DNA from: Actinoplanes nipponensis
Lineage (GTDB): Bacteria; Actinomycetota; Actinomycetes; Mycobacteriales; Micromonosporaceae
Direction of reading: 5' to 3'
Assembly (NCBI RefSeq): GCF_016862275.1
Contig: NZ_BOMQ01000065.1
Location: 1 to 64,000 of the forward strand
Length of the DNA stretch: 64,000 nucleotides
Position numbers and translations under genes: made by a program. Each line of letters opens with the position of its first letter. Positions within the stretch are counted from its first letter, which is position 1. The notes under the pieces are model-generated. The model did not search any database and was not told where the DNA came from. It was given only the letters and a program-made list of their open reading frames with translations. Positions 37,649 through 50,228 of the stretch are shown in pieces.

Positions 37649-39091
37649 CCCCGGGGTGAAGGCCGGCGGCGGCCCGCCGTGGGTCCAGGGCGTCTGGTCC
37701 GGGTCGGGAAACGCCCCGCCCGGCCGGTACGCCTCGCTCAGCGTCGTCAGCAGCACCCGCTCACCCACCGCGGGCACGCTGCCGGGCTCGGCCACCAACT
37801 TGCGGCCCATGCCGCCGGAGAGCTCCAGCAGCACCTCGGTCCGGTCCGCGCCGGCCGCCGTCACCGAGATCACCAGGGCCTTCTGGCTCGGTCGCTGCGG
37901 CGAGGTCAGCGTGGCGCCCGGTTCCACCCGGACCGGTTCGCCGGTGACCACCATGATGCGCGGGCGCAGCACCGGCCGTTTGCCGGTGTCGTCGATCCGG
38001 TCCGCATTGGCCAGGGTCACCTCCCCCGCGAAGGCCGCGCCGACGAGCCGGTACTCCGCCATCACCAGGGGGTCGTCGAAGGCCCGCTGGACCGCGTACC
38101 GGGTGGCCGCGCTCTCCAGCCGGTGCAGGCGGGCCGCCGCCGCCACCGCGCCGTCGCGGCGGGGCTGGGGCGGGCCGCCCTCGGCCAGGTGCTGCACGAA
38201 GCCGGAGTACGTGTCGCGGTCGCTGTCCCACCGGCCCGCCACCCGGGCGCCGGCCGGCAATTCCCGCAGCAGGTCGAGGGTGCGCCACATGAGCTCCCAG
38301 GTCGGCAGCAACTGCGCGCGCAGCACCTCGGTCAGGGCCGCGACGTCCGGCTCGGCCGTGGACATCAGCGGGGCCAGCACGTGGTTGTCGAAGGCCGGGT
38401 CGGTGGCCGGCCCGGCCGGCGGGGACAGCGCCGGATCCTCGGCCGCCCGGGCCGCCTCGGCGCCGGTGCGGCCGGGCGGCGGCGAGATCCAGGCGAGCAG
38501 GGCCGCGAGCTGGGCGTCCTCCGCGCCGCTCTGCCCGGTCGCCCAGTGCAGGCCGAGCGCCTGTACGGCGTTGAGCAGCAACGACGACCCGGGCATCTCG
38601 GCGGCGTGGGCGAAGAACGTGAGCCAGCGCCCGAGCAGCGGGACCGACGGGGGCACCGCGTACTCACCGTCGATGCTGCGGAAGCGCGTCGACCGGCCGA
38701 ACAGCCGCAGGAAGTCGACGCCACCGGTGTTCGGCACCCAGAGCTGCGGCGCGTCGGTGAACCGGTGCCGCACGTCCCGGCCCCGGTCGACCGCCACCGC
38801 CTCGGTCGCGGCGGTGAAGCTGTCCACGTACGGCAGCACGATGCCGGCCAGTTCGGCGGCGAAGGCGAAGCGGTGGTCGCGGTTGCGGGGCTGGGCCACG
38901 ATCAGCAGCCGCGGCGCCGACCGCTCGGCGCCCACCAGCGCGGCCAGCGGGGCGTGCGCCTCCCCGGCCATGGCCAGCGGGATCAGCACCAGCGGCCGGG
39001 GGTGGACGTGCAGGTGCCGGACGGTGGCGATGGGCTGGGCGCGGCCGTCGGCGTAGGCCTGGGCGCGGGCCAGGGCGGTGAGCGTACTCAC
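37628..39091 (-). CDS. Conserved-looking hypothetical protein (third gene of nuclease operon), 487 aa
   Basis: Not recognised. No signal peptide or membrane segment. The N-terminal half has alpha/beta segments (LVLIPLAMAGEAHAPLAALV, RLLIVAQPRNRDHRFAF, VDFLRLFGRSTRF, LLGRWLTFFAHAAEMPGSSL). The C-terminal third has an OB-like beta-rich stretch (GEPVRVEPGATLTSPQRPSQ, KALVISVTAAG, RTEVLLELSGG). GTG at 39091 overlaps the nuclease stop as GTGA, giving tight translational coupling. It must work with the upstream nuclease. It converges with the SpoIIE gene. The RRR and VAQPRN motifs look like nucleic-acid contact, but that is guesswork. Confidence 0.65.
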   Translation of the reverse strand: MSTLTALARAQAYADGRAQPIATVRHLHVHPRPLVLIPLAMAGEAHAPLAALVGAERSAPRLLIVAQPRNRDHRFAFAAELAGIVLPYVDSFTAATEAVAVDRGRDVRHRFTDAPQLWVPNTGGVDFLRLFGRSTRFRSIDGEYAVPPSVPLLGRWLTFFAHAAEMPGSSLLLNAVQALGLHWATGQSGAEDAQLAALLAWISPPPGRTGAEAARAAEDPALSPPAGPATDPAFDNHVLAPLMSTAEPDVAALTEVLRAQLLPTWELMWRTLDLLRELPAGARVAGRWDSDRDTYSGFVQHLAEGGPPQPRRDGAVAAAARLHRLESAATRYAVQRAFDDPLVMAEYRLVGAAFAGEVTLANADRIDDTGKRPVLRPRIMVVTGEPVRVEPGATLTSPQRPSQKALVISVTAAGADRTEVLLELSGGMGRKLVAEPGSVPAVGERVLLTTLSEAYRPGGAFPDPDQTPWTHGGPPPAFTPGSEQADQ

Positions 39092-40149
39092 GCCAGCTCG
39101 GCCCGCAGCCGGGCCGCGGCCCGCAGCAGCGCCGCCGCCTCGACCTGGTCCTCGGCCGGCTCGGCCGTGCCGGCGGCCAGCGCCAGCGCCTCGGCCACGG
39201 TGTCCACGCCGCCGAGCGCGTCGCGGACCGGCCGGCCGAGCGCGGCGGTGCTGCCCGCGGCCTCGTGCCGGCAGTAGACCGCCAGCTCGCAGGCGGACAG
39301 GCACTCGGGGGCGTAGCGGGCCTCGACGTGGCGCAGCGCGGCGGTCAGGTCGGCCGGGCCCAGCGCCAGGTCGAAGCTGACCGACCCGGGCAGGGCGGCG
39401 GCCAGCTCGGACACCGAGGCCAGCCGGGCGAGCTGGCGCTGCAGGGTGGACAGCTGTTTGCGTACGTCGAGGACCACCGCGGCCGGCTGGAGCGAGAAGT
39501 TCTCGGTGCACACCAGCACGACGTCGTGGCTGACCAGCGTGGGGTCGTGGCCCAGCTCGGCGAGCAGCCGGCGCAACGCGAGCACGTAGACGGCCGCCTG
39601 CACGGCCGCCGCGGAGACCTTGGCGCTGTCGGCCTGCCCGTCCACGATCGCGAACGACTTGATCTCCACTACGTGCAGCCGGCCCTCGATCTGCAGGGCG
39701 ATCAGGTCCGGTTCCAGGAAGACCCGCTGACCGGCCACGTCGAGGGTGAGCAGCGGGTGGTCGATCAGGGCGGCGCCGGCCGCGCCGGCGAGCAGTTCCC
39801 GGGTACGCCGGTGCCGGGCCGTCAGCGTGTCGTCGTCGTCCTCGCCCAGGTCGTCGTACCCGCCGGCGGCGTCCAGCTGCAGGCACTCGGTCAGCACCTT
39901 GCGCAGCAGGGCGCAGTCGTCGGCCTTGAGCATCGCCTCGAAGCCGTTGCCCCGGGCCAGGGCGAACCGGGACTGGCCGAAGCTGCCCGGGAAGCCGATC
40001 CGCTGGGCCAGCTTCGGCTTGTCGACGCCGGCCGCGTCGAGCACGGCCCGCCGGGTGCAGCCGGGGTTGCCGGTGAGCGCGGCGATGGTCCGGGCGTTGT
40101 GCCGCTTCGGCGGGGTGCCGCCGCGGAGTCGGTCGAGGCCGGCGGTCAC
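39088..40149 (-). CDS. RecB/Cas4-like PD-(D/E)XK nuclease with four-cysteine (Fe-S type) signature
   Basis: 353 aa. A lone Cys at about residue 31 (GNPGCTRRAVL) is followed by FARGNGFE-like and SFGQSRFALARGNGFEAML segments. The nuclease core is RVFLEPDLIALQIEGRLHVV then EIKSF (EPD...EIK; motifs about 142 and 162), and QAAVYVLAL is the downstream helix. A C-terminal trio C-x3-C-x5-C lies at about 281-291 (ECLSACELAVYCRH). One N-terminal plus three C-terminal cysteines around a PD-(D/E)XK core is the Cas4/AddB/DNA2 iron-sulfur nuclease layout. GTG at 40149 overlaps the upstream gene as GTGA, and its end overlaps the 487-aa gene. Likely 5'-3' DNA exonuclease or end-processing enzyme. Confidence 0.8.
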   Translation of the reverse strand: MTAGLDRLRGGTPPKRHNARTIAALTGNPGCTRRAVLDAAGVDKPKLAQRIGFPGSFGQSRFALARGNGFEAMLKADDCALLRKVLTECLQLDAAGGYDDLGEDDDDTLTARHRRTRELLAGAAGAALIDHPLLTLDVAGQRVFLEPDLIALQIEGRLHVVEIKSFAIVDGQADSAKVSAAAVQAAVYVLALRRLLAELGHDPTLVSHDVVLVCTENFSLQPAAVVLDVRKQLSTLQRQLARLASVSELAAALPGSVSFDLALGPADLTAALRHVEARYAPECLSACELAVYCRHEAAGSTAALGRPVRDALGGVDTVAEALALAAGTAEPAEDQVEAAALLRAAARLRAELA

Positions 40150-40730
40150 GCGCGGCCCCGCTGGTGCGGCACCCGCGGCACGCCGAAGAGCCGCTGTCGC
40201 TCGTCCAGGGCGGCCCAGCGTTGCACGGTCTCGGCGGCCAGCGGCACTTCCGGGACGGCGGCGAGGGCGGTGCGGGCGGCGTCGGCGAGCGCGGCGGGGT
40301 GCTGCACCGCGTACGCCTCCGGGCCGCCGGGCACCTCGTCGGCCAGGCGGCGCAGCAGACGGGTGGCGGCCAGGCCGGCGGCCTCGCGCATGGCGACGAA
40401 CTCGGCGATCCGGACGATCGCCGCCAGCAGGTCGGCCGGCGGGGTGGCGACCCGGCCCTCGACCGGCCAGGCCGACAGCGTGAGCTGGCCCCGGGCCGCG
40501 GTCAGGTCGGGTCGCAGCGCCGGGCAGATGCGCCACGCCGTGGGATCGCCGGCCGGGTGCGCGCGTTCCTCCTCCCGCAGCAGCGCGACGAGGGCGGCGA
40601 CGGTGAGATCCCCGTCGAACAGCGCGCCGTGCACGTCGGCGACCAGGCGGCACGAGGCGGGCGCGCCGATCAGCAGCAGGGCGCGGCGGGCCTGCTCGCG
40701 GGTGCTCGGCAGCGTGCTCAAGCGGGTCAT
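40146..40730 (-). CDS. Hypothetical protein (first gene of nuclease operon), 194 aa
   Basis: Not recognised. It starts MTRLSTLPSTREQARRALLL, is all-alpha in appearance (DLLAAIVRIAEFVAMREAAG, ADAARTALAAVPEVPLAAET), with a basic C-terminus (RQRLFGVPRVPHQRGRA). It is coupled to the Fe-S nuclease gene by a GTGA overlap, so it is likely a partner, regulator or targeting subunit of the nuclease. The start ATG is at 40730. Upstream is a 156-base gap before the divergent DUF427 gene, which is where the operon promoter must lie. Confidence 0.65.
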   Translation of the reverse strand: MTRLSTLPSTREQARRALLLIGAPASCRLVADVHGALFDGDLTVAALVALLREEERAHPAGDPTAWRICPALRPDLTAARGQLTLSAWPVEGRVATPPADLLAAIVRIAEFVAMREAAGLAATRLLRRLADEVPGGPEAYAVQHPAALADAARTALAAVPEVPLAAETVQRWAALDERQRLFGVPRVPHQRGRA

Positions 40731-40886
40731 GGGCGGCCGCTTCCATCCGGGGGGCTTGGCGGATCGACTCTAGATCGTCGTACAGCACCCCGGCAATGTG
40801 CGGACGACTCACCACGTTTCACCCACGGGAGGCGAATAAACCGCGCGTATCGGACAGTGCCTCGGGTGGCGCGCTACGTTCGGGGT

Positions 40887-41220: not shown

Positions 41221-41616
41221 CTACCCGATCCTCGGGTGGGCGTCCTCGATCGCCGTGACCTCCAGGTAGTCGAGCATGTCCCGCTGCTCGGCCTCGCCGA
41301 GGGCGTAGAACGCCTCGTAGGCCGAGGACCGCGAGTGCGGCGTCTCCGCCGCGAGCAGCGCGATGATCGCCGACCAGGCCAGCGAGACCCGGTCGAAGAG
41401 CCGCGCGGTCCGCAGCGACGTGAGCCGGCTCAGCATCGCCACCTTCGTCGCCGCGTCGTCGTCGGCCGCGATCCGGTCCGACAGCTCGAACAGCGCCTTG
41501 CCCCGGTACGGGTGTTCCGCCTCGACCAGCCGCGCCAGCTCGGCGTTGTCCATCCGGTCGACGGGCGGCGCGGGACCGCGGCGCGGCAGCCGCGGCCGGG
41601 AGTCGTCAGCGGGCAC
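41221..41616 (-). CDS. Hypothetical helical protein, 131 aa
   Basis: No family recognised. After a basic Pro-rich start (PRLPRRGPAPPVDRMDNAEL), the rest is alpha-helical (LARLVEAEHPYRGKALFELS, DAATKVAMLSRLTSLRTAR, AYEAFYALGEAEQRDMLDYL), resembling HEAT-type or unknown actinobacterial proteins. GTG at 41616 overlaps the upstream 74-aa gene by 11 bases and continues it in the same direction. Confidence 0.6.
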   Translation of the reverse strand: MPADDSRPRLPRRGPAPPVDRMDNAELARLVEAEHPYRGKALFELSDRIAADDDAATKVAMLSRLTSLRTARLFDRVSLAWSAIIALLAAETPHSRSSAYEAFYALGEAEQRDMLDYLEVTAIEDAHPRIG

Positions 41617-41830
41617 GGCTGTCCCGCCCGCTCTCGAAGCCCACTCCCGGCACCTGGTGCGGCAGGGTGGGGCGGCTGGAGAAGGTCGGGAACGGCGGCG
41701 CCGGCATCACCGGGGCGTCCGGTGGCGCGGAACCGTGCTCGGCGTCGTCGGCCTCCTCGACCGCAGCGTCGATCTGATCGCGCACCTCGTCCTCCGGGTT
41801 CGTGTCGCCCTCCACTTTCCGTCCCAGCAC
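41606..41830 (-). CDS. Small acidic/Pro-rich hypothetical protein, 74 aa
   Basis: GTG start at 41830 with a clear GGAGG seven bases upstream (the best evidence that it is real). The sequence is very acidic at first (EDEVRDQIDAAVEEADDAEH) and then Pro-rich (PPDAPVMPAPPFPTFSSRP). No family recognised. Overlaps the following 131-aa gene by 11 bases, so the two form a small operon. Confidence 0.55.
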   Translation of the reverse strand: MLGRKVEGDTNPEDEVRDQIDAAVEEADDAEHGSAPPDAPVMPAPPFPTFSSRPTLPHQVPGVGFESGRDSRAR

Positions 41831-42022: not shown

Positions 42023-42229
42023 GTGGACGGGGATACGAGCACCACCGGTGCGACATCCGAGTGGCGGTCGGCCATGGTCGACGTCTCCGGGCTGTCCCTG
42101 GCCGAGCTCGCCGCCGGCGGCCCGCCGGACCCGGCCGACGAGTCGGCGCTGGCCCGCTGCCTGCGGCGACTGGCCGACGACCTGGCCCGGCCGGGCGAAC
42201 CGATCGCCGGCTTCAACTCGGCCCTCTGA
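42023..42229 (+). CDS. fxsA: FxSxx-COOH RiPP precursor (FxsA-like)
   Basis: 68 aa peptide starting MDGDTSTTG with leader-like Leu/Ala/Asp-rich middle (LSLAELAAGGPPDPADESAL) and ending GEPIAGFNSAL. The last five residues FNSAL fit the FxSxx-COOH pattern, the hallmark of this ribosomal peptide class, where a radical-SAM enzyme (FxsB) normally crosslinks the Phe. Immediately downstream (8 bases after the stop) is the HEXXH-domain protein that usually accompanies this system. GTG at 42023. No FxsB gene is in the window. Assignment by C-terminal motif and neighbours. Confidence 0.8.
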   Translation: MDGDTSTTGATSEWRSAMVDVSGLSLAELAAGGPPDPADESALARCLRRLADDLARPGEPIAGFNSAL

Positions 42230-42237
42230 GCGCCGCC

Positions 42238-43731
42238 GTGCCGCACACCCTCGCGTCCCGGCCGCCGGCCGGCCTGCGGGTGCACCGGCTCAGCGACGCG
42301 GCGTTCGCCGCGCTGGGCGCGGGCCGCCCGGACGCCGCGACCGTCGACGAGCTGCGCCGCGCCCAGCTCAGCCGGCATCTGCTGCTGCTCCGGGAGATCA
42401 ACGCGGCCGTGCCGGTCCCCGGGTACGCGGCCCTGGTGGCGGCCGAACGGCAGGATCCGGCGCGAGTCCGGGCGCTGCTGGCCCGTCCACTGGTCGGCGT
42501 GTGGGCCACCCGCTGCCTGACCGCCCTGCGCGCCGGCGCGTCCCGGGCCGAGGTGCCCCTGGGCCACCTGGCCGCGCTCACCGGCGACGCCGGGCCGGCG
42601 ACCCCGCCGCTCACCGCCGCCCACGACGGCCTGTCGATCTCGGTACGCGTCGAGGACCGCGACCCGCTGCGGGCCGGGCTGGGGCTCACCCCGGCTCCCA
42701 CGCTCACCCCGGCCGAACGGGACCGCTGGCAGCAGACCCTGACCGGCGCCTGGCGCCCGCTGGTCGAGCGGCTCCGCCCGGACGCCGAGGTGCTGGCCGC
42801 CGTCCTGGACTGCGTCGTGCCGGTCCGGACCGATCCGGCCGCCCGCGGCATCAGCGCCACCTCGGCGGACGCGTTCGGCGCGGTGGCGATGTCCGAGCCG
42901 GCCGACGCCACCGCCCTCGCGGTCGGCCTGCTGCACGAGACCCGGCACAGCCTGCTGAACGCCGTGCAGTACCTCTTCGACCTGCACGAGCAGCCGGACC
43001 GGCTGGGCTACTCGCCGTGGCGCGACGACCCCCGCCCGGCCGCCGGCATCCTGCACGGCGCGTACGCCTACCTGACCGTCACCCGGTTCTGGCGGTCCCG
43101 GCGCGCGGATCCCGTGGCGGCGTTCGAGTTCGCCCGCTGGCGCGCGGCGGTCCACACCGCGGCGAGCGACCTCCTCGCCGGGGGCACGCTGACCGCGGCC
43201 GGCACCCGGTTCGTGACCGCGCTGCGCGCCGAGGTGGAACCGTGGCTGGCCGAGCCGCTGCCGGCCGGGGTCGCCCGGCTGGCCGCCGGGGCCAACGCCG
43301 ATCACCGACTGCGCTGGCGGCTGCGCAACCGGCACGTGTCACCCGGGGACGCCCGGTTGCTCGCGGACGCCTGGACGCAGGGCCGGCCCGCGCCCCGGAT
43401 CACCTCCGAGCTGCGTGCGGCCCCGCGGCGGGCGCTGGAGGCCAGCAGCCGGCTCGACCTCGTCCACGCCACGCTGCGCGGGCAGCCCGCGCCGGGCAGT
43501 ACGCCCGCAGGCGACCTGGCCTACCTGCGGGGGGACCCGGCGGCGGCGCTGCGGGCGTACCGGGAAAGGGTGGTCGCGGACGCCGGGGACGACGCGGCCT
43601 GGGCCGGTCTCGCCCTGGCCGGCGGGCCCGCCGCGGTGCGCGACACACCGGAGGTGGTCGCGGCCGCCTACCGCGCGCTGGACGTCCCGGGCGCCGACCC
43701 GCTGGCCCTGGCCGGCTGGCTTTCTTCCTGA
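42238..43731 (+). CDS. HEXXH-motif protein of the FxSxx-COOH peptide system
   Basis: 497 aa from the GTG at 42238 (VPHTLASRPPAG). The signature LLHETRHSLLNAVQYLFDLH contains HEXXH and the family helix around it. The family is the HEXXH motif domain found fused to, or beside, FxsB maturases. The rest is mostly alpha-helical, with a repeat-like C-terminal half rich in Arg/Ala (ASDLLAGGTLTAAGTRF, AAALRAYRERVVADAG). It directly follows the FxSxx precursor and precedes the GGDEF-EAL gene by 56 bases. Predicted to act on the precursor peptide, possibly as the second modification or proteolytic step; the exact chemistry is not established. Confidence 0.82.
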   Translation: MPHTLASRPPAGLRVHRLSDAAFAALGAGRPDAATVDELRRAQLSRHLLLLREINAAVPVPGYAALVAAERQDPARVRALLARPLVGVWATRCLTALRAGASRAEVPLGHLAALTGDAGPATPPLTAAHDGLSISVRVEDRDPLRAGLGLTPAPTLTPAERDRWQQTLTGAWRPLVERLRPDAEVLAAVLDCVVPVRTDPAARGISATSADAFGAVAMSEPADATALAVGLLHETRHSLLNAVQYLFDLHEQPDRLGYSPWRDDPRPAAGILHGAYAYLTVTRFWRSRRADPVAAFEFARWRAAVHTAASDLLAGGTLTAAGTRFVTALRAEVEPWLAEPLPAGVARLAAGANADHRLRWRLRNRHVSPGDARLLADAWTQGRPAPRITSELRAAPRRALEASSRLDLVHATLRGQPAPGSTPAGDLAYLRGDPAAALRAYRERVVADAGDDAAWAGLALAGGPAAVRDTPEVVAAAYRALDVPGADPLALAGWLSS

Positions 43732-43787
43732 GGTTCGCTCAGGTCCGCCGCCGCCGCACCGATGGGTGCCCCTGTCGGAGGTGAGTC

Positions 43788-45455
43788 ATGGGTCGGACCG
43801 GGAAGACCATGGATCGTGTGCGTCGCGGTGTCGACGGCACCATGATCTTCACGTCGCTGTCGCTGCTCGCGTGGCCGGTGATGGCCGCGGGCCCCGCCGG
43901 CGTGCTCGCCGGCGGCCTCGCCGTGCTGCTCCTGGGCGTGGGCGTGATCGTCCTGGCCGGACGCCGGCCGCTGCTGCAGTACGTCCCCGTCGCCGCCGCC
44001 GTCCTGGTGGCCGCCTACCGGGTGGCCCGGCACGGCGTCGCCGACCGGCCGCTGACCTGGCTCGTCCTGGGCGTCGCGGCGATCATCCTGCTCCGCCAGT
44101 TCCTCGGCGCGCGGACCAACGAGGGCCTGGTCCGCGACCTCACCCGGCAGCGGGCCCAGCTGGCCCGGCAGGCGTTCCGCGACCCGCTCACCGAGCTCGG
44201 CAACCGCAAGCTGTTCATGGACCACGCCACCGACGCCCTCGCGGACGCCGACGACACCACGACCGCCGTGATCCTGTTCGACCTCGACGGGTTCAAGCAG
44301 GTCAACGACACGTACGGGCACGCCACCGGCGACGAGCTGCTGCGGACCGCGGCGGAACGGCTCAGCGCGAACGTCCGGACCAACGACACCGTGTCCCGCC
44401 TCGGCGGCGACGAGTTCGTGGTGCTGCTGCCCCGCCTGGTGGACGAGCGCATCGCCGACACCGTCGCGGCCCGCATCCTGCGCGACCTGGCCCAGCCGCT
44501 GGTGGTCGGCGACACCGTGCTGACCATCCCGGCCAGCGCCGGCATCGCCCTGACCAAGGGCAGCGGCACCGCCGTGGACGACGTGATGCGCGAGGCCGAC
44601 CTGGCCCTGTACCAGGCGAAGGCCGAGGGCAAGGGCGTCGCCCGGCGGTTCGACCCGACCCAGTTCGCCGCGGCCGAGCAGCGCCGCCGCGAGGAGGCGG
44701 ACCTGTGCCGCGCCCTCGACGACGGCGAGTTCGAGGTGTACTACCAGCCGATCGTCGACCTGGACGGCGAACGCACGGTCGGCGTCGAGGCGCTGGTCCG
44801 GTGGAACCACCGGGAGCGGGGCATGCTCCCGCCGGCCGCCTTCCTCGACATGGCCGAGACGCTGGGCCTGCTGCCCCGGCTCGGCGGCTGGGTGCTCGAG
44901 GAGGCCTGCCGGCAGGCCGCGGTGTGGCAGGCCCAGGCCCCCGGCTTCGAGCTCAACGTCAACCTGTCGGCCAGCCAGCTCGGCAACCCGGCGCTGATCG
45001 ACGAGGTCCGCGCCGTGCTGGAGCGCACCGGCCTGCCGCCCGCGCTGCTGGTGCTGGAGCTGACCGAGTCGGTGGCGCTGGTCGACCTCATCGAGTCGGC
45101 CCGGGTGCTGGGCGCGCTCAAGCAGCTCGGCGTGCGGATCGCGCTGGACGACTTCGGCACCGGCTTCTCGTCGCTGAGCCACCTCGGCACCCTGCCCGTC
45201 GACGTCGTGAAGATCGACAAGTCGTTCGTGCAGGCCATGCAGGAGAGCAACGGGGCGTCGGTGGCCGAGGCGGTGCTCCAGATCGCCCGGACGTTCCGCC
45301 TGGCGCCGGTCGCCGAGGGCGTCGAGGACGCGACCCAGGCCAGCCGGCTGCGCGAGCTGGACTGCGCCCAGGCCCAGGGCTACCACTTCGCCCGGCCGAT
45401 GCCGGCCGTCGACCTGACCGCGTTGCTGACCCGCCAGGCGGCGCTGCCGGCCTGA
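43788..45455 (+). CDS. Membrane-bound GGDEF-EAL protein (c-di-GMP turnover)
   Basis: 555 aa. N-terminal membrane segments occupy about 20-100 (SLLAWPVMAAGPAGVLAGGL, AVLLLGVGVIVLAG, YVPVAAAVLVAAYRV, WLVLGVAAIILL). The GGDEF domain (about 125-285) has DPLTELGNRKLF, FDLDGFKQVNDTYGH and SRLGGDEFVVLLP, all intact. The EAL domain (about 300-545) has VYYQPIVDLDGERTVGVEAL, VNLSASQLG, LELTESVAL, LDDFGTGFSSLSHL and VVKIDKSFV. Both activities look possible, so net effect cannot be read. Start ATG has GGAGG eight bases upstream. Its end is one base from the convergent FxsT-like gene. It may be co-transcribed with the FxSxx genes. Confidence 0.9.
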   Translation: MGRTGKTMDRVRRGVDGTMIFTSLSLLAWPVMAAGPAGVLAGGLAVLLLGVGVIVLAGRRPLLQYVPVAAAVLVAAYRVARHGVADRPLTWLVLGVAAIILLRQFLGARTNEGLVRDLTRQRAQLARQAFRDPLTELGNRKLFMDHATDALADADDTTTAVILFDLDGFKQVNDTYGHATGDELLRTAAERLSANVRTNDTVSRLGGDEFVVLLPRLVDERIADTVAARILRDLAQPLVVGDTVLTIPASAGIALTKGSGTAVDDVMREADLALYQAKAEGKGVARRFDPTQFAAAEQRRREEADLCRALDDGEFEVYYQPIVDLDGERTVGVEALVRWNHRERGMLPPAAFLDMAETLGLLPRLGGWVLEEACRQAAVWQAQAPGFELNVNLSASQLGNPALIDEVRAVLERTGLPPALLVLELTESVALVDLIESARVLGALKQLGVRIALDDFGTGFSSLSHLGTLPVDVVKIDKSFVQAMQESNGASVAEAVLQIARTFRLAPVAEGVEDATQASRLRELDCAQAQGYHFARPMPAVDLTALLTRQAALPA

Positions 45456-45456
45456 G

Positions 45457-47943
45457 TCACAGCGGCGGCGGCTCGATCTCCGTCTCCAGGCGCCCGCCGG
45501 CCAGCGCGCGGGCGAGCAGCGGATGGCCCTCGCCGTACGCCTTCTGCAGCTCCTCGGCGGCGGCCTGCATCGACGGCTCGTCGCCGGCGTCCAGCGCGAC
45601 GTTGAACGCGCAGGCCAGGGTGTCCGGGTGCGCCGCGCCGCGCAGCGACCGGGAACGGGCGACGGTGTCCAGCGCGATCTCCCGGGCCTGCTGCGCCTCG
45701 CCCAGCGCCAGCAGATCCGCGGCCAGACCGTTCGCGCAGCTCAACGTGAACGGGTGATCCGCGCCGACGCTGCGCCGCAACCCGCCCAGCGCCTCGGCGT
45801 CGATCGTGCGGGCCTCGGCGTACCGGCCGGTGGCCCGCACCACCCCGGCCAGGTCGGCCGCCGCGGCCAGCGTGAACGGATGCTCCTCGCCCAGCACCGC
45901 GTGGTAGCGGGCCACCGCCCGCTCCAGCAGCCGGTGCGCCTCGTCGAGGTCGCCGTCCGCCCGGGCGCAGTTGGCCAGCGACACCAGCGCGCCCAGCGTC
46001 TCCACGTTCAGATCGCCGAACTTCTGCCTGTACAGCTCCGCGTTGGCCGCGGCGAGCTCGCGGGCCTGCGGCAGCCCGCGCCGGCGCGCCGCGATGGCCG
46101 CGAACCGCCCGGCCCACAACGCCATCGGATGGTCGGCGCCGAGCGCGTCGGCGTACCCGTTGGCCAGCAGCGCCGAGGCGCCGGCGTAGTCACCCAGCCC
46201 GACCAGGTCGAAGGCCAGCCCGGCCCGCGAGGACAGCGTCTCCGGATGACCCTCCACGAAGATCATCTGCCGGTGCCGGAGCACCTGCTCGTCGAGCGCC
46301 CGCGCCCCCCGGAAGTCGCCCAGCAGCCGCAGGTCGACGGCCAGGTTGTTGGCGCAGCGCAGGGCGGTCGGGAAGCTCTCGCCGAACAGCCGGCGGTAGC
46401 GCACCAGGTTGTCCGCGTCGAGCTGGCGGGCCTGCCCGAAGTGACCCTGGATCCGCAGGTCGGCGCCGACACTGTTGGCCGTGGCCAGGGTCGTCTCGTC
46501 GTCGCCGCCGAGCACCTCACGCTGCGAGCGCAGCGTCTGGGCGTTCAGGGACCGGGCGTCGGCCGTACGCCCCACCGCCCGCAACGCGTTGGCCAGGTGG
46601 AACGAAGCCAGGAGGGTCTGCTCGTCGGTCTCGCCGAGGCTGTCCCGCCAGCGCGCCACCGCCTGCGCCGCCAGGTCGCGGCTGGAGTCCCAGTCGCCGC
46701 GGGCGTACAGGAACCGGATGCAGTTGATGACCAGCTGGCGGATCTCCTCGGCGTCGGCGCCGAGCACGTCGGAGTGCACCAGGTGCGGGACGATCGCCGC
46801 GTACCGGGGCCAGTGGGCGGGGTTGTCCGGGTCGCCGGGATCGGCCGCGGCCAGCATGGCCCGCACCGAACGCAGCAGCGCGGCGTGCCGCTCCGAACTC
46901 AACTGCTGGCCCAGCATGCCCCGGACCAGCGGATGCACCAGCACGTTGTCGCCCGGCGGGTCCAGCTCGGCCAGCCCGTACCGGCCGGTCAGCCGCAGCG
47001 CCGCCTTGAGCCGCCGCTCGATGCGTACCGTGCGGGCCAGCTCCGGCGGCACCACGCCGCGCGCCGCCCAGAGCAGCTCCCACGACACCGGCGCGCTGGC
47101 CAGGAACGCGCACAGCTCGAGCAGCTGGAAGGCGGCCGGCGAGGTTTCCGCCAGCGCGTCCGCGGCCAGCCCCCAGGCCACCCGGATGGGCGTCGGGAAG
47201 GCCAGCTCGGCGGCCCGCCGCTGGTAGCGGCGCAGGTACTCGTCGACGCTCCAGCCCGTCGCCACCCGCACCGCGGCGGCCTGGTCCAGCGCCATGGGCA
47301 CGTCGTCGAGGCCCTCGGCCAGCCGCTCGGCCTCCGCGGCGGACAGCTCCGGGGAGCGCCGGCGCAGGAAGTCCACGCTGTCCGTCCGGTCGAACACCGG
47401 CACCGGCACCGCCTGGGCGACCTCCGAGGTCCACCGCGGATTGCGCGAGGTGACCAGCACGTGCCCGGCCCCGCTGGGCAGGTACGGCTTGATGTCCTCG
47501 GGCCGGTTCGCGTTCTCGAACACGACCAGCCAGTTCCGGTACGGCTCGCCCCGGCTGAGCGCGTCACGCACCGCGCCCAACGTACGGTTGATGTCGCGGG
47601 CCTCGGGCAGCCGCAGCTCGCTGGCCAGCCCGACCAGCGCGGCCCGCATGCCGGCGGTCTGCTCGGCCGGGATCCACCAGACCAGGTCGTAGGTGGCGGC
47701 GTAACGGTGGGCGTACTCCACGGCGAGCTGGGTGCGCCCGGTCCCGCCGAGCTGGTGCTCGGCGGCGGGCAGCAACACGACCGGCCCGGTGCCGAGCAGC
47801 CCGCGCACGTCGGCGAGCAGCCCCTCCCGGCCGATGAAACGCGGATTACGCGGCGGCAGCCCACCCCGGATCGGCACGCCGCCCTCCCCACTGGTGACTC
47901 GGCCATCTACTGTCGTTGTGCCGATTACCGTACGTGGAATCAT
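45457..47943 (-). CDS. fxsT: FxSxx-COOH system tetratricopeptide protein FxsT-like (NB-ARC + TPR)
   Basis: 828 aa. The N-terminus (GGLPPRNPRFIGREGLLADV) and LPAAEHQLGGTGRTQLAVEY, then YDLVWWIPAEQTAGMRA, are the FxsT NB-ARC-like pattern. The next helical half carries LVTSRNPRWTSEV and DDVPMALDQAAAV, and the last about 400 residues are tetratricopeptide repeats (LARALFNL-type A/L/G-rich helices, DEQTLLASFHLANALRAVG, HPFTLAAAADLAGVVRATGR). The P-loop lacks its Lys: GGTGRT instead of GGVGKT. ATG at 47943 is preferred; an in-frame start at 48003 would overlap the divergent STAS gene. FxsT proteins accompany FxSxx peptides. Confidence 0.82.
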   Translation of the reverse strand: MIPRTVIGTTTVDGRVTSGEGGVPIRGGLPPRNPRFIGREGLLADVRGLLGTGPVVLLPAAEHQLGGTGRTQLAVEYAHRYAATYDLVWWIPAEQTAGMRAALVGLASELRLPEARDINRTLGAVRDALSRGEPYRNWLVVFENANRPEDIKPYLPSGAGHVLVTSRNPRWTSEVAQAVPVPVFDRTDSVDFLRRRSPELSAAEAERLAEGLDDVPMALDQAAAVRVATGWSVDEYLRRYQRRAAELAFPTPIRVAWGLAADALAETSPAAFQLLELCAFLASAPVSWELLWAARGVVPPELARTVRIERRLKAALRLTGRYGLAELDPPGDNVLVHPLVRGMLGQQLSSERHAALLRSVRAMLAAADPGDPDNPAHWPRYAAIVPHLVHSDVLGADAEEIRQLVINCIRFLYARGDWDSSRDLAAQAVARWRDSLGETDEQTLLASFHLANALRAVGRTADARSLNAQTLRSQREVLGGDDETTLATANSVGADLRIQGHFGQARQLDADNLVRYRRLFGESFPTALRCANNLAVDLRLLGDFRGARALDEQVLRHRQMIFVEGHPETLSSRAGLAFDLVGLGDYAGASALLANGYADALGADHPMALWAGRFAAIAARRRGLPQARELAAANAELYRQKFGDLNVETLGALVSLANCARADGDLDEAHRLLERAVARYHAVLGEEHPFTLAAAADLAGVVRATGRYAEARTIDAEALGGLRRSVGADHPFTLSCANGLAADLLALGEAQQAREIALDTVARSRSLRGAAHPDTLACAFNVALDAGDEPSMQAAAEELQKAYGEGHPLLARALAGGRLETEIEPPPL

Positions 47944-47981: not shown

Positions 47982-48299
47982 GTGTCCGAGGAAGCCGTAA
48001 CAAGTCTCGACCGCGACGCCGACGTGGTCACCGTGCGCCTGCACGGGGAGATCGACGTCCTGACGGTCGATCAGGTCCGGGTCAGTCTGGTGGAGGCCCT
48101 GGAGGGCCGGCCCCGGGCGATCATCGTGGACCTGGCGGAGCTGTCCTTCATCGACTCGACCGGGCTGGGGGCGATCATCTTCGGCTTCCAGCGGGCGCGG
48201 GACGAGGGGGTGGAGTTCCGGCTGGCTCACCCCAGTCGGGGGGTACGGCAGATCCTGGTGCTCAGTGGGCTGCTGGAGGTCGTCGGGCTGACGGAGTGA
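47982..48299 (+). CDS. STAS-domain anti-sigma-factor antagonist
   Basis: 105 aa single STAS domain. Visible motif: HGEIDVLTVDQVRVSLVEAL and DLAELSFIDSTGLGAIIFGF with the phospho-acceptor Ser in DSTG. The fold length is standard (about 100-115). Such proteins, when dephosphorylated by SpoIIE-type phosphatases, bind anti-sigma kinases and release a sigma factor. GTG at 47982 with AAAGGAC upstream. Divergent from the FxsT-like gene (38-base gap). The 3' side opens into the repeat region. Confidence 0.9.
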   Translation: MSEEAVTSLDRDADVVTVRLHGEIDVLTVDQVRVSLVEALEGRPRAIIVDLAELSFIDSTGLGAIIFGFQRARDEGVEFRLAHPSRGVRQILVLSGLLEVVGLTE

Positions 48300-49150: not shown

Positions 49151-50228
49151 GGGCTCAACTGGTGGTTGCAACACCGAGTAGTTCGGCCATCTTCTCAGCG
49201 GGGTTGGCCCAGCCCAAGGTTTGCCGGGGACGGCCGTTGAGTTCGTCAGCGACCTGGTCCAGGCCGGCCTGGTCGATGGTGGTGAAGTCGAAGCGGCCTT
49301 TCGAGAAGTACTGCCGCAACAACCCGTTGGTGTTCTCGTTCGACCCCCGCTGCCAGGGCGAGTGCGGGTCACAGAAGTAGACCGGGCAGTCGGTGGCCAG
49401 GCTGAACCGGTGGTGGGCGGCCATCTCCGAACCTTGGTCCCAGGTCAGCGACGCCCGCAGCCGCGCCGGCAGCCGGCCCATCGCCTCCGACAACCGGGCA
49501 ACGACATGTTCGGAGACCTTGCCCTCGGGTAGCCCGACCAGGATGACGAACCGGGTGGCCCGTGCCACCAGGGTGGCGATCGCCGAGTTCAGCCCACCGC
49601 GGCGGGTGCCCTCGAGCAGGTCACCTTCCCAGTGCCCGGGCACCGCCCGATCGCAGGCCTCGGCCGGCCGGGCGCTGATGTTCAGGCCCAGCCACGGCCG
49701 CGATGAACGGATAGCCCCCGCGACAGCGGGCCGGGCTCTGCGGGTTGCCCGCCCGGACCGCAGGGCCACCTGCCGGGACAGATCAGCGCGCAGATTCCCG
49801 CGGGCCTGCAGATAGATAGCCTGGTAGATCGTCTCGTGCGACACATGCCACTCCGGGTGTTCGGGATGCTCGATCCGTAGCCAAGCGGCGATCTGCTGCG
49901 GCGACCACCGCCGGCGCAACCCGGCCAGAACCAGGTCCCGCAACACCGGATCGGTCGCCAGCCGGGCAACCCGACGCGGCCGGCGATGCCGTAACCAGCA
50001 CGCCCAGTCCGCCGCCGAGGGCAGATACCGCTGACCGTACTTCTCGAACCAGGCCACCTCCCGCGACACCGTCGAGGGCGCCCGCTCCAGACACCGGGCA
50101 ATCTGCCGAATCGACTCACCCGCCGCCCGGCCCAACCCGATCCGTTCCCGCTCCCACACAGACAACCTCTTCGCCACAACCCACTCCTAGCTGCAGAAAC
50201 GCGGGTGTTGCAACCAGACCTTGAAATC
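49151..50228 (-). mobile_element. IS30-family insertion sequence, about 1.08 kb
   Basis: A single transposase gene nearly fills the element. The ends share TGGTTGCAACACC as inverted repeats (49162-49174, and its complement near 50203-50215), with weaker matching outside (TCAA at both ends), as in other IS30 members. The exact boundaries and target-site duplication cannot be fixed by eye; 49151 and 50228 are estimates. Confidence 0.75.
49155..50177 (-). CDS. IS30-family transposase
   Basis: 340 aa, full length and apparently intact. The N-terminal helix-turn-helix is SIRQIARCLERAPSTVSREV, which binds the ends. The DDE catalytic domain has PGHWEGDLLEG (first Asp), LTWDQGSEM (second Asp), and HSPWQRGSNENTNGLLRQYF (catalytic Glu). 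It is the right length for the family (about 330-390). GTG start at 50177 has GGAGTGGGTT upstream. The gene should allow cut-and-paste or copy-type movement of the element. Confidence 0.95.
   Translation of the reverse strand: MAKRLSVWERERIGLGRAAGESIRQIARCLERAPSTVSREVAWFEKYGQRYLPSAADWACWLRHRRPRRVARLATDPVLRDLVLAGLRRRWSPQQIAAWLRIEHPEHPEWHVSHETIYQAIYLQARGNLRADLSRQVALRSGRATRRARPAVAGAIRSSRPWLGLNISARPAEACDRAVPGHWEGDLLEGTRRGGLNSAIATLVARATRFVILVGLPEGKVSEHVVARLSEAMGRLPARLRASLTWDQGSEMAAHHRFSLATDCPVYFCDPHSPWQRGSNENTNGLLRQYFSKGRFDFTTIDQAGLDQVADELNGRPRQTLGWANPAEKMAELLGVATTS

Follow-up and report, generated by a model that had tools for sequence, protein, structure and literature searches.

Which enzyme acts on an FxSxx-COOH precursor peptide when the maturase normally encoded beside it is missing is the question raised by a locus of Actinoplanes nipponensis. 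This locus lies in the first 64,000 bases (the window, in what follows) of contig C65 (187,490 bases), part of an 8.95-Mb genome that is assembled in 122 contigs and rated 100% complete. The locus encodes a precursor of a putative ribosomally synthesized and post-translationally modified peptide (RiPP), a stand-alone HExxH protein, a GGDEF-EAL protein and an FxsT protein. An earlier note on this sequence pointed out that the radical-SAM/SPASM enzyme FxsB, usually found beside or fused to the HExxH domain, is absent, and left two possibilities: FxsB acting in trans from elsewhere in the genome, or a divergent variant of the system that employs the HExxH protein together with a different enzyme. 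Comparison of 67 genomes from the same genus, which is of Actinoplanes type (focal genome included), along with a search of 287 genomes of other genera of the family, supports the former and lends no support to the latter. The locus is probably part of a split FxSxx-COOH cyclophane RiPP system, with FxsB encoded elsewhere and acting in trans. This is the best reading because FxsB is present in all 49 genus genomes that carry the locus, is never found within 97 kb of it on the same contig, and in 35 of these genomes occurs as a solo gene without a recognizable substrate nearby. Matches are called over cut-off when they exceed the curated score of the respective model, that is, 28 bits for TIGR04268, 40 for TIGR04267, 300 for NF040586 and 53.45 for TIGR00377.

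The precursor gene (42023–42229, plus strand) has a GTG start and encodes 68 amino acids ending in EPIAGFNSAL immediately before the stop codon. The C-terminal FxSxx and a TIGR04268 score of 41.8 bits place it in the FxSxx-COOH precursor family, in agreement with the assignment originally made from its GFNSAL ending. At E 0.001, this model matched none of 14 control genomes and, in the focal genome, only the place in the window (150 of 691 candidates scored); at E 0.01, two control genomes were matched, both under the cut-off. The precursor and HExxH alignments hold 37 rows and represent 36 distinct loci, L054 and L222 being the same place in genome G037. The precursors of these 36 loci end in IAGFNSAL (30 loci), IAGFNSAI (3), IAGFNSAV (2) or VAGFNSAL (1), so that FNSA is kept in every one, and conservation along the precursor is highest in the core; the concern that the FNSAL ending might not be conserved in orthologues can be set aside. 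The codons for FNSAL occupy positions 42212–42226 of the plus strand, and F-N-S is predicted to form a three-residue cyclophane, by analogy with the crosslink described for MscB (PMC11002830).

No FxsB is encoded beside this precursor. At E 0.001, the FxsB profile recognized nothing in the window, in the 60–80 kb segment of C65 or in 28 orthologous loci, and among 30 occurrences of the bare CxxxCxxC pattern in the same stretches, a pattern for which positive controls were used, none falls in a frame recognized by the profile. The genome-wide search that had been recommended, performed with TIGR04269, produced six matches at E 0.001, none of them on C65; the pair that exceeds the cut-off maps to contig C36 at 79–92 kb, which makes them FxsBs of the same genome. 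The absence reported for the window holds for the entire 187-kb contig, and the possibility of a radical-SAM gene of this family just outside the window was rejected. Loss of FxsB in an assembly gap was rejected as well, if less firmly in view of the 122 contigs: the genome is rated complete and contains no FxsB fragment over the cut-off besides the two on C36. The weak match on C85 was rejected as a third FxsB, being AmcB, a cyclophane-forming radical-SAM maturase of another type (530 bits).

The two C36 FxsBs belong to two complete clusters, each of which also includes HExxH, FxsT and FxsC relatives and a small FxSxx-like open reading frame (ORF). These clusters (L013 and L014; about 79–98 kb) are located near each other, and their small ORFs end in PFTSYLP and DFGSAIG, one residue beyond FxSxx. 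TIGR04268 reported neither of the C36 ORFs, which were identified by position and motif only. They also match a small precursor profile, which they do by construction because the C36 precursors were included in its training.

The split layout is widely conserved. An orthologue of the HExxH protein, taken as the mark of the locus, was detected in 49 of the 67 genus genomes, self included, with 51–79% identity in the others (each genome's best match); full-length identity over 36 aligned rows ranges from 46 to 78%. The order of two upstream flank genes, the HExxH, FxsT and STAS genes is kept in all 20 fetched loci, the GGDEF-EAL gene is present in 19 of them, and the complete set is seen in six further genomes that were fetched. 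Conservation of this layout in 49 of 67 genomes argues against local loss of FxsB. FxsB is over the cut-off in 64 of the 67 genomes, including all 49 with the locus and 15 of the 18 without it (Fisher p 0.017, relatedness ignored), and the three genomes that lack FxsB also lack the locus.

Outside the genus, a single close orthologue was found among the 287 genomes, in G343 (58% identity), where the precursor ends in IAGFNSAF and the sole FxsB is solo and located on another contig, the same split as in the Actinoplanes genomes. The comparison of relatives proposed in the earlier note reveals a split layout shared by 49 genus genomes and G343. In 15 further genomes of other genera, HExxH matches were obtained at E 1e-55 (42–46% identity), and in 14 of these FxsB is encoded within 1 kb, which confirms that the two genes are usually adjacent or fused. 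In the exception, G306 (L229, L230), the fetched stretch around the HExxH and FxsT genes contains no FxsB, and a distinct FxsB cluster is located about 1.26 Mb from it.

Classification of 143 FxsB frames by their surroundings yielded 67 in clusters, 37 fused to HExxH and 39 solo, a solo FxsB being one with no HExxH, FxsT or FxsC relative within 6 kb; small ORFs beside the solos were considered separately. Seven solo frames were scanned, of which six pass the FxsB cut-off; the seventh, L084 (275 bits), fits YhhB better, is under both cut-offs and was dropped. Two other doubtful solos were dropped, L216 of G031, which is a 190-residue fragment, and L092 of G056, which lies 3.4 kb from a contig end, with a weak precursor nearby and an HExxH-like start. 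These removals lower the number of locus-bearing genomes with a solo FxsB from 37 to 35 of 49. The solos of G030 and G058, less than 300 bases from a contig end, were kept; G012 and G026, their neighbours in the FxsB tree, are solo with more than 5 kb on both sides. With this set, a solo FxsB is found in 35 of 49 locus-bearing genomes and in 1 of 18 others (G048, on a long tree branch; Fisher p 2e-6, again ignoring relatedness). Ten of the 35 (G056 left out) have no FxsB over the cut-off besides the solo, and the other 25 also carry clustered or fused FxsBs. Among the small coding-like ORFs beside the solos no convincing precursor was found, the only profile match being the weak one at G056.

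The CxxxCxxC motif is kept in all 36 solo FxsBs, and the SPASM cysteines were located by pattern in 23 of them and by eye in 13 (CGAG where the pattern wanted CxG); dN/dS is 0.17–0.34 in 8 pairs. The solo FxsBs persist under purifying selection with no recognized local substrate. On a quick tree of 142 FxsBs the solo status requires 18 changes, 13 of them forced by well-supported branches, and the solo label has therefore changed repeatedly. In relatives G006, G009, G010 and G021, a solo FxsB is located between a 64-residue gene and purC. The purC and Sco1979-family regulator genes of the focal genome (88–93% identity to those of the relatives) are on C36. There, no FxsB is encoded between the 64-residue gene and purC, and immediately beyond purC a complete FxsB cluster starts; that a clustered C36 FxsB has taken over in the focal genome would be the simplest, if conjectural, reading.

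Seven genomes (G006, G009, G010, G023, G024, G049 and G050) possess one of each component: a single FxsB over the cut-off, solo and unlinked, one HExxH match (E 1e-20) and one FxSxx precursor over the cut-off, where “one precursor” means one found by TIGR04268, a model that missed the C36 precursors. G009 has a second match to the FxsB model and G049 a second precursor match inside a 10,011-residue frame, both below the cut-off. G010, G024 and G049 have their chromosome in a single contig, in the coordinates of which the precursor locus and FxsB are separated by 1.2 to 6.8 Mb.

The second gene of the locus (42238–43731, plus strand) starts 8 bases past the precursor stop and encodes the 497-residue HExxH protein, with its motif HETRH at 42934–42948, just as initially described. 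It scores 150.7 bits against TIGR04267, and the columns of the HExxH, PWRxDPRP and LHG motifs are identical in at least 36 of the 37 aligned rows. For its predicted structure (mean pLDDT 80.6, six sequences), the only Foldseek matches at E 0.001 are SjiH (22ob) and ChlH (8s5f), both with probability 1.00. Score, motifs and modelled fold all agree with the family of α-ketoglutarate (aKG)-HExxH-type peptide beta-hydroxylases, and the protein is predicted to be an aKG- and iron-dependent enzyme of this kind. SjiH (22nu has the same sequence) is its closest solved relative (142.5 bits by sequence, Foldseek E 8.6e-12), but carries Gln at the LHG-motif position that is His273 in the window locus type, and the window protein extends about 150 residues past the shared domain. 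ChlH, with which it shares family and fold, is part of ChlBH, described in PMC12636437 as a fused radical-SAM/aKG-HExxH protein in whose system the cyclophane is made before beta-hydroxylation, ChlH hydroxylating Asp and His once the cyclophane is in the peptide; the window enzyme, in contrast, is unfused and its radical-SAM partner would be encoded elsewhere.

Several observations weigh against action of FxsB in trans. As stated above, FxsB is also present in 15 of the 18 genomes without the locus. Of the 49 locus-bearing genomes, 19 have an FxsB on the contig of the locus and 30 have it only on others, and positions on separate contigs of a multi-contig genome do not give the true physical distance between the two. 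The focal genome has no solo FxsB and, with 11 others in the raw classification and with G056 and G031 after the dropped rows, brings to 14 the number of locus-bearing genomes without one, where the donor must therefore be a clustered FxsB; in the focal genome it is less certain because both FxsBs sit in complete C36 clusters. An independent-pairs test on the FxsB tree, which is underpowered, gave 4.1 pairs in the expected direction, 0.5 in the other and 8.4 uninformative ones (median p 0.22). That TIGR04268 overlooked the C36 precursors also counts here, as the single precursor of the one-of-each genomes is the one recognized by this model. Finally, AmcB is over the cut-off in all 67 genomes, the focal one included (C85:37604–38671, L003), and is, by co-occurrence, also a possible donor of the modification.

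The alternative that survives best, itself unlikely, is that the peptide is never cyclised: the HExxH enzyme would act alone on a linear C-terminus, by hydroxylation or oxidative cleavage, and FxsB would co-occur only since FxSxx clusters are common in the genus. Such activities have precedents among HExxH enzymes whose clusters are not centred on a radical-SAM partner: PflC and PosC are able to hydroxylate Gln/Asn and to cleave the peptide backbone (PMC12636437), and PesO hydroxylates Pro (PMC13060819). The frequency of FxsB in genomes without the locus fits this alternative too. The alternative leaves unaccounted for the invariance of the cyclophane-motif F and S in the precursors read, as well as the solo FxsBs, under purifying selection, without recognized local substrates and found mostly in locus-bearing genomes. 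Less probable still is modification of the precursor in trans by a radical-SAM maturase other than FxsB, for instance AmcB, which is universal in the genus, equally present in the locus-lacking genomes and has no specific association with the locus, so that its distribution carries no signal either way; the precursor, moreover, fits the FxSxx family model end to end. The idea that the locus is a decaying relic whose focal copy has lost FxsB, for which the lack of a solo FxsB in the focal genome could be quoted, is very improbable given the synteny in 20 of 20 fetched relatives, the retention of the HExxH motif residues and the occurrence of an internal stop only in G056 among the best HExxH matches of the 49 genomes.

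The FxsT gene (45457–47943, minus strand) encodes an FxSxx-COOH system TPR protein that matches NF040586 over its full length (830.4 bits; model 1–830 of 830) and is assigned to FxsT on that basis. It had been described in the earlier note as FxsT-like with NB-ARC and TPR domains; the FxsT and TPR parts of that description are borne out, but at E 0.001 Pfam yields only TPRs and no NB-ARC match, so that the latter rests on P-loop-like sequence, the degeneracy of which had gone unremarked. Among 29 FxsTs of this locus type (the window, L057–L076, L158, L217–L222 and L228), the Walker A Lys is replaced by Arg in all 29 (codon 47734–47736 in the window), the first P-loop Gly by Gln in 26 and the Walker B Asp by Glu in 27. 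In 112 FxsT-like proteins of FxsB-linked loci, the Lys and the Gly are present in all 112 and the Asp in 111. The locus-type FxsTs thus lack the Walker A lysine and, in 27 of 29, the Walker B aspartate expected of STAND/NB-ARC ATPases and, though conserved, are probably not ATPases.

In the split system with FxsB in trans, the locus would supply the precursor, the stand-alone aKG- and iron-dependent HExxH beta-hydroxylase, a cyclic di-GMP (c-di-GMP) enzyme and FxsT. The maturase could be donated by a solo FxsB in 35 of the 49 genomes; in the focal genome, either C36 FxsB or the two together would donate it while also serving their own clusters. The model for the crosslink is MscB, whose InterPro number, IPR026335, is that of the FxsB family. 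MscB bonds C4 of Phe to the beta-carbon of Ser, according to PMC11002830. By the same chemistry, FxsB would form a bond within F-N-S, between Phe64 and the Ser66 beta-carbon, and the HExxH enzyme would next add a hydroxyl group within the cyclised C-terminus, most likely to Asn65, although this site is a guess. A cyclophane with a hydroxyl group is predicted since MscB chemistry, the order of steps in the ChlH system and the predicted fold match to SjiH and ChlH all point that way. The product might then be read by FxsT, with an output linked to c-di-GMP and to the neighbouring STAS regulator; because its P-loop lacks the catalytic lysine, FxsT is probably a scaffold for binding rather than a switch driven by ATP.

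Of the remaining genes, the one for the GGDEF-EAL protein of c-di-GMP turnover (43788–45455, plus strand) begins 56 bases beyond the HExxH gene and likely belongs to the same operon; both domains named at the outset were found in Pfam (EAL 245.9 bits, GGDEF 149.3 bits). Divergently from FxsT lies the gene of the STAS protein, an anti-sigma factor antagonist (47982–48299, plus strand; TIGR00377 73.1 bits), syntenic in 20 of 20 loci (L058 is cut at the stretch end). The two conserved upstream flank genes (41221–41706 and 39088–40818, both minus strand), also syntenic in 20 of 20 loci, match no Pfam family at E 0.001. Just past the STAS gene, an ORF at 49155–50177 (minus strand) resembles, by eye, an IS30-type transposase. 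Small ORFs at FxsB loci L088, L094, L140, L144, L179 and L180 contain AAFNAAPLRR near the end, with Ala in place of the FxSxx Ser. Tandem FxsB pairs about 7 kb apart, accompanied by FxsC and FxsT and with no HExxH or precursor recognized, occur at L119, L123, L142, L145, L166 and L205.

The locus has the precursor family, the C-terminal FxS and the HExxH and FxsT partners in common with the known FxSxx-COOH/FxsB triceptide (three-residue cyclophane) systems (TIGR04268, TIGR04269). It differs from them in that FxsB is not within 97 kb on the same contig in any of the 49 genomes, the P-loop of FxsT is degenerate and a GGDEF-EAL gene stands beside HExxH. Split RiPP pathways in general are known, as in the case of prochlorosins and cittilin, and the newness therefore lies in the FxSxx arrangement and not in the principle. 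Literature searches, with subscription papers mostly outside their scope, returned no report of FxsB in trans, nor, when directed at precursors encoded elsewhere and at Actinoplanes cyclophanes, of such a split. Actinobacterial peptide-processing systems with an AP-ATPase effector resemble the locus in combining a zincin-like gene, an FxSxx peptide and an ATPase/TPR protein; in that eLife paper (PMC7159879), a radical-SAM/SPASM gene is said to accompany the FxSxx type, none being local here, and the zincin is read as a peptidase, an interpretation that predates the hydroxylase work.

RiPP mining often seeks the maturase beside the precursor, and a split FxSxx system would be dropped or mis-assigned by such an approach. 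The one-of-each genomes represent natural test cases for FxsB working in trans, and the set of FxsTs with a pseudo-P-loop would be useful in studies of how FxsT deals with the peptide. Tentatively, the locus might represent a conserved module of intracellular peptide signalling served by a shared cyclase that can be exchanged: FxsBs orphaned by the loss of their own clusters would have been repeatedly kept for this precursor, different FxsBs could serve it, and the cyclised, hydroxylated peptide would be bound by a pseudo-STAND protein unable to hydrolyse ATP and wired to c-di-GMP turnover.

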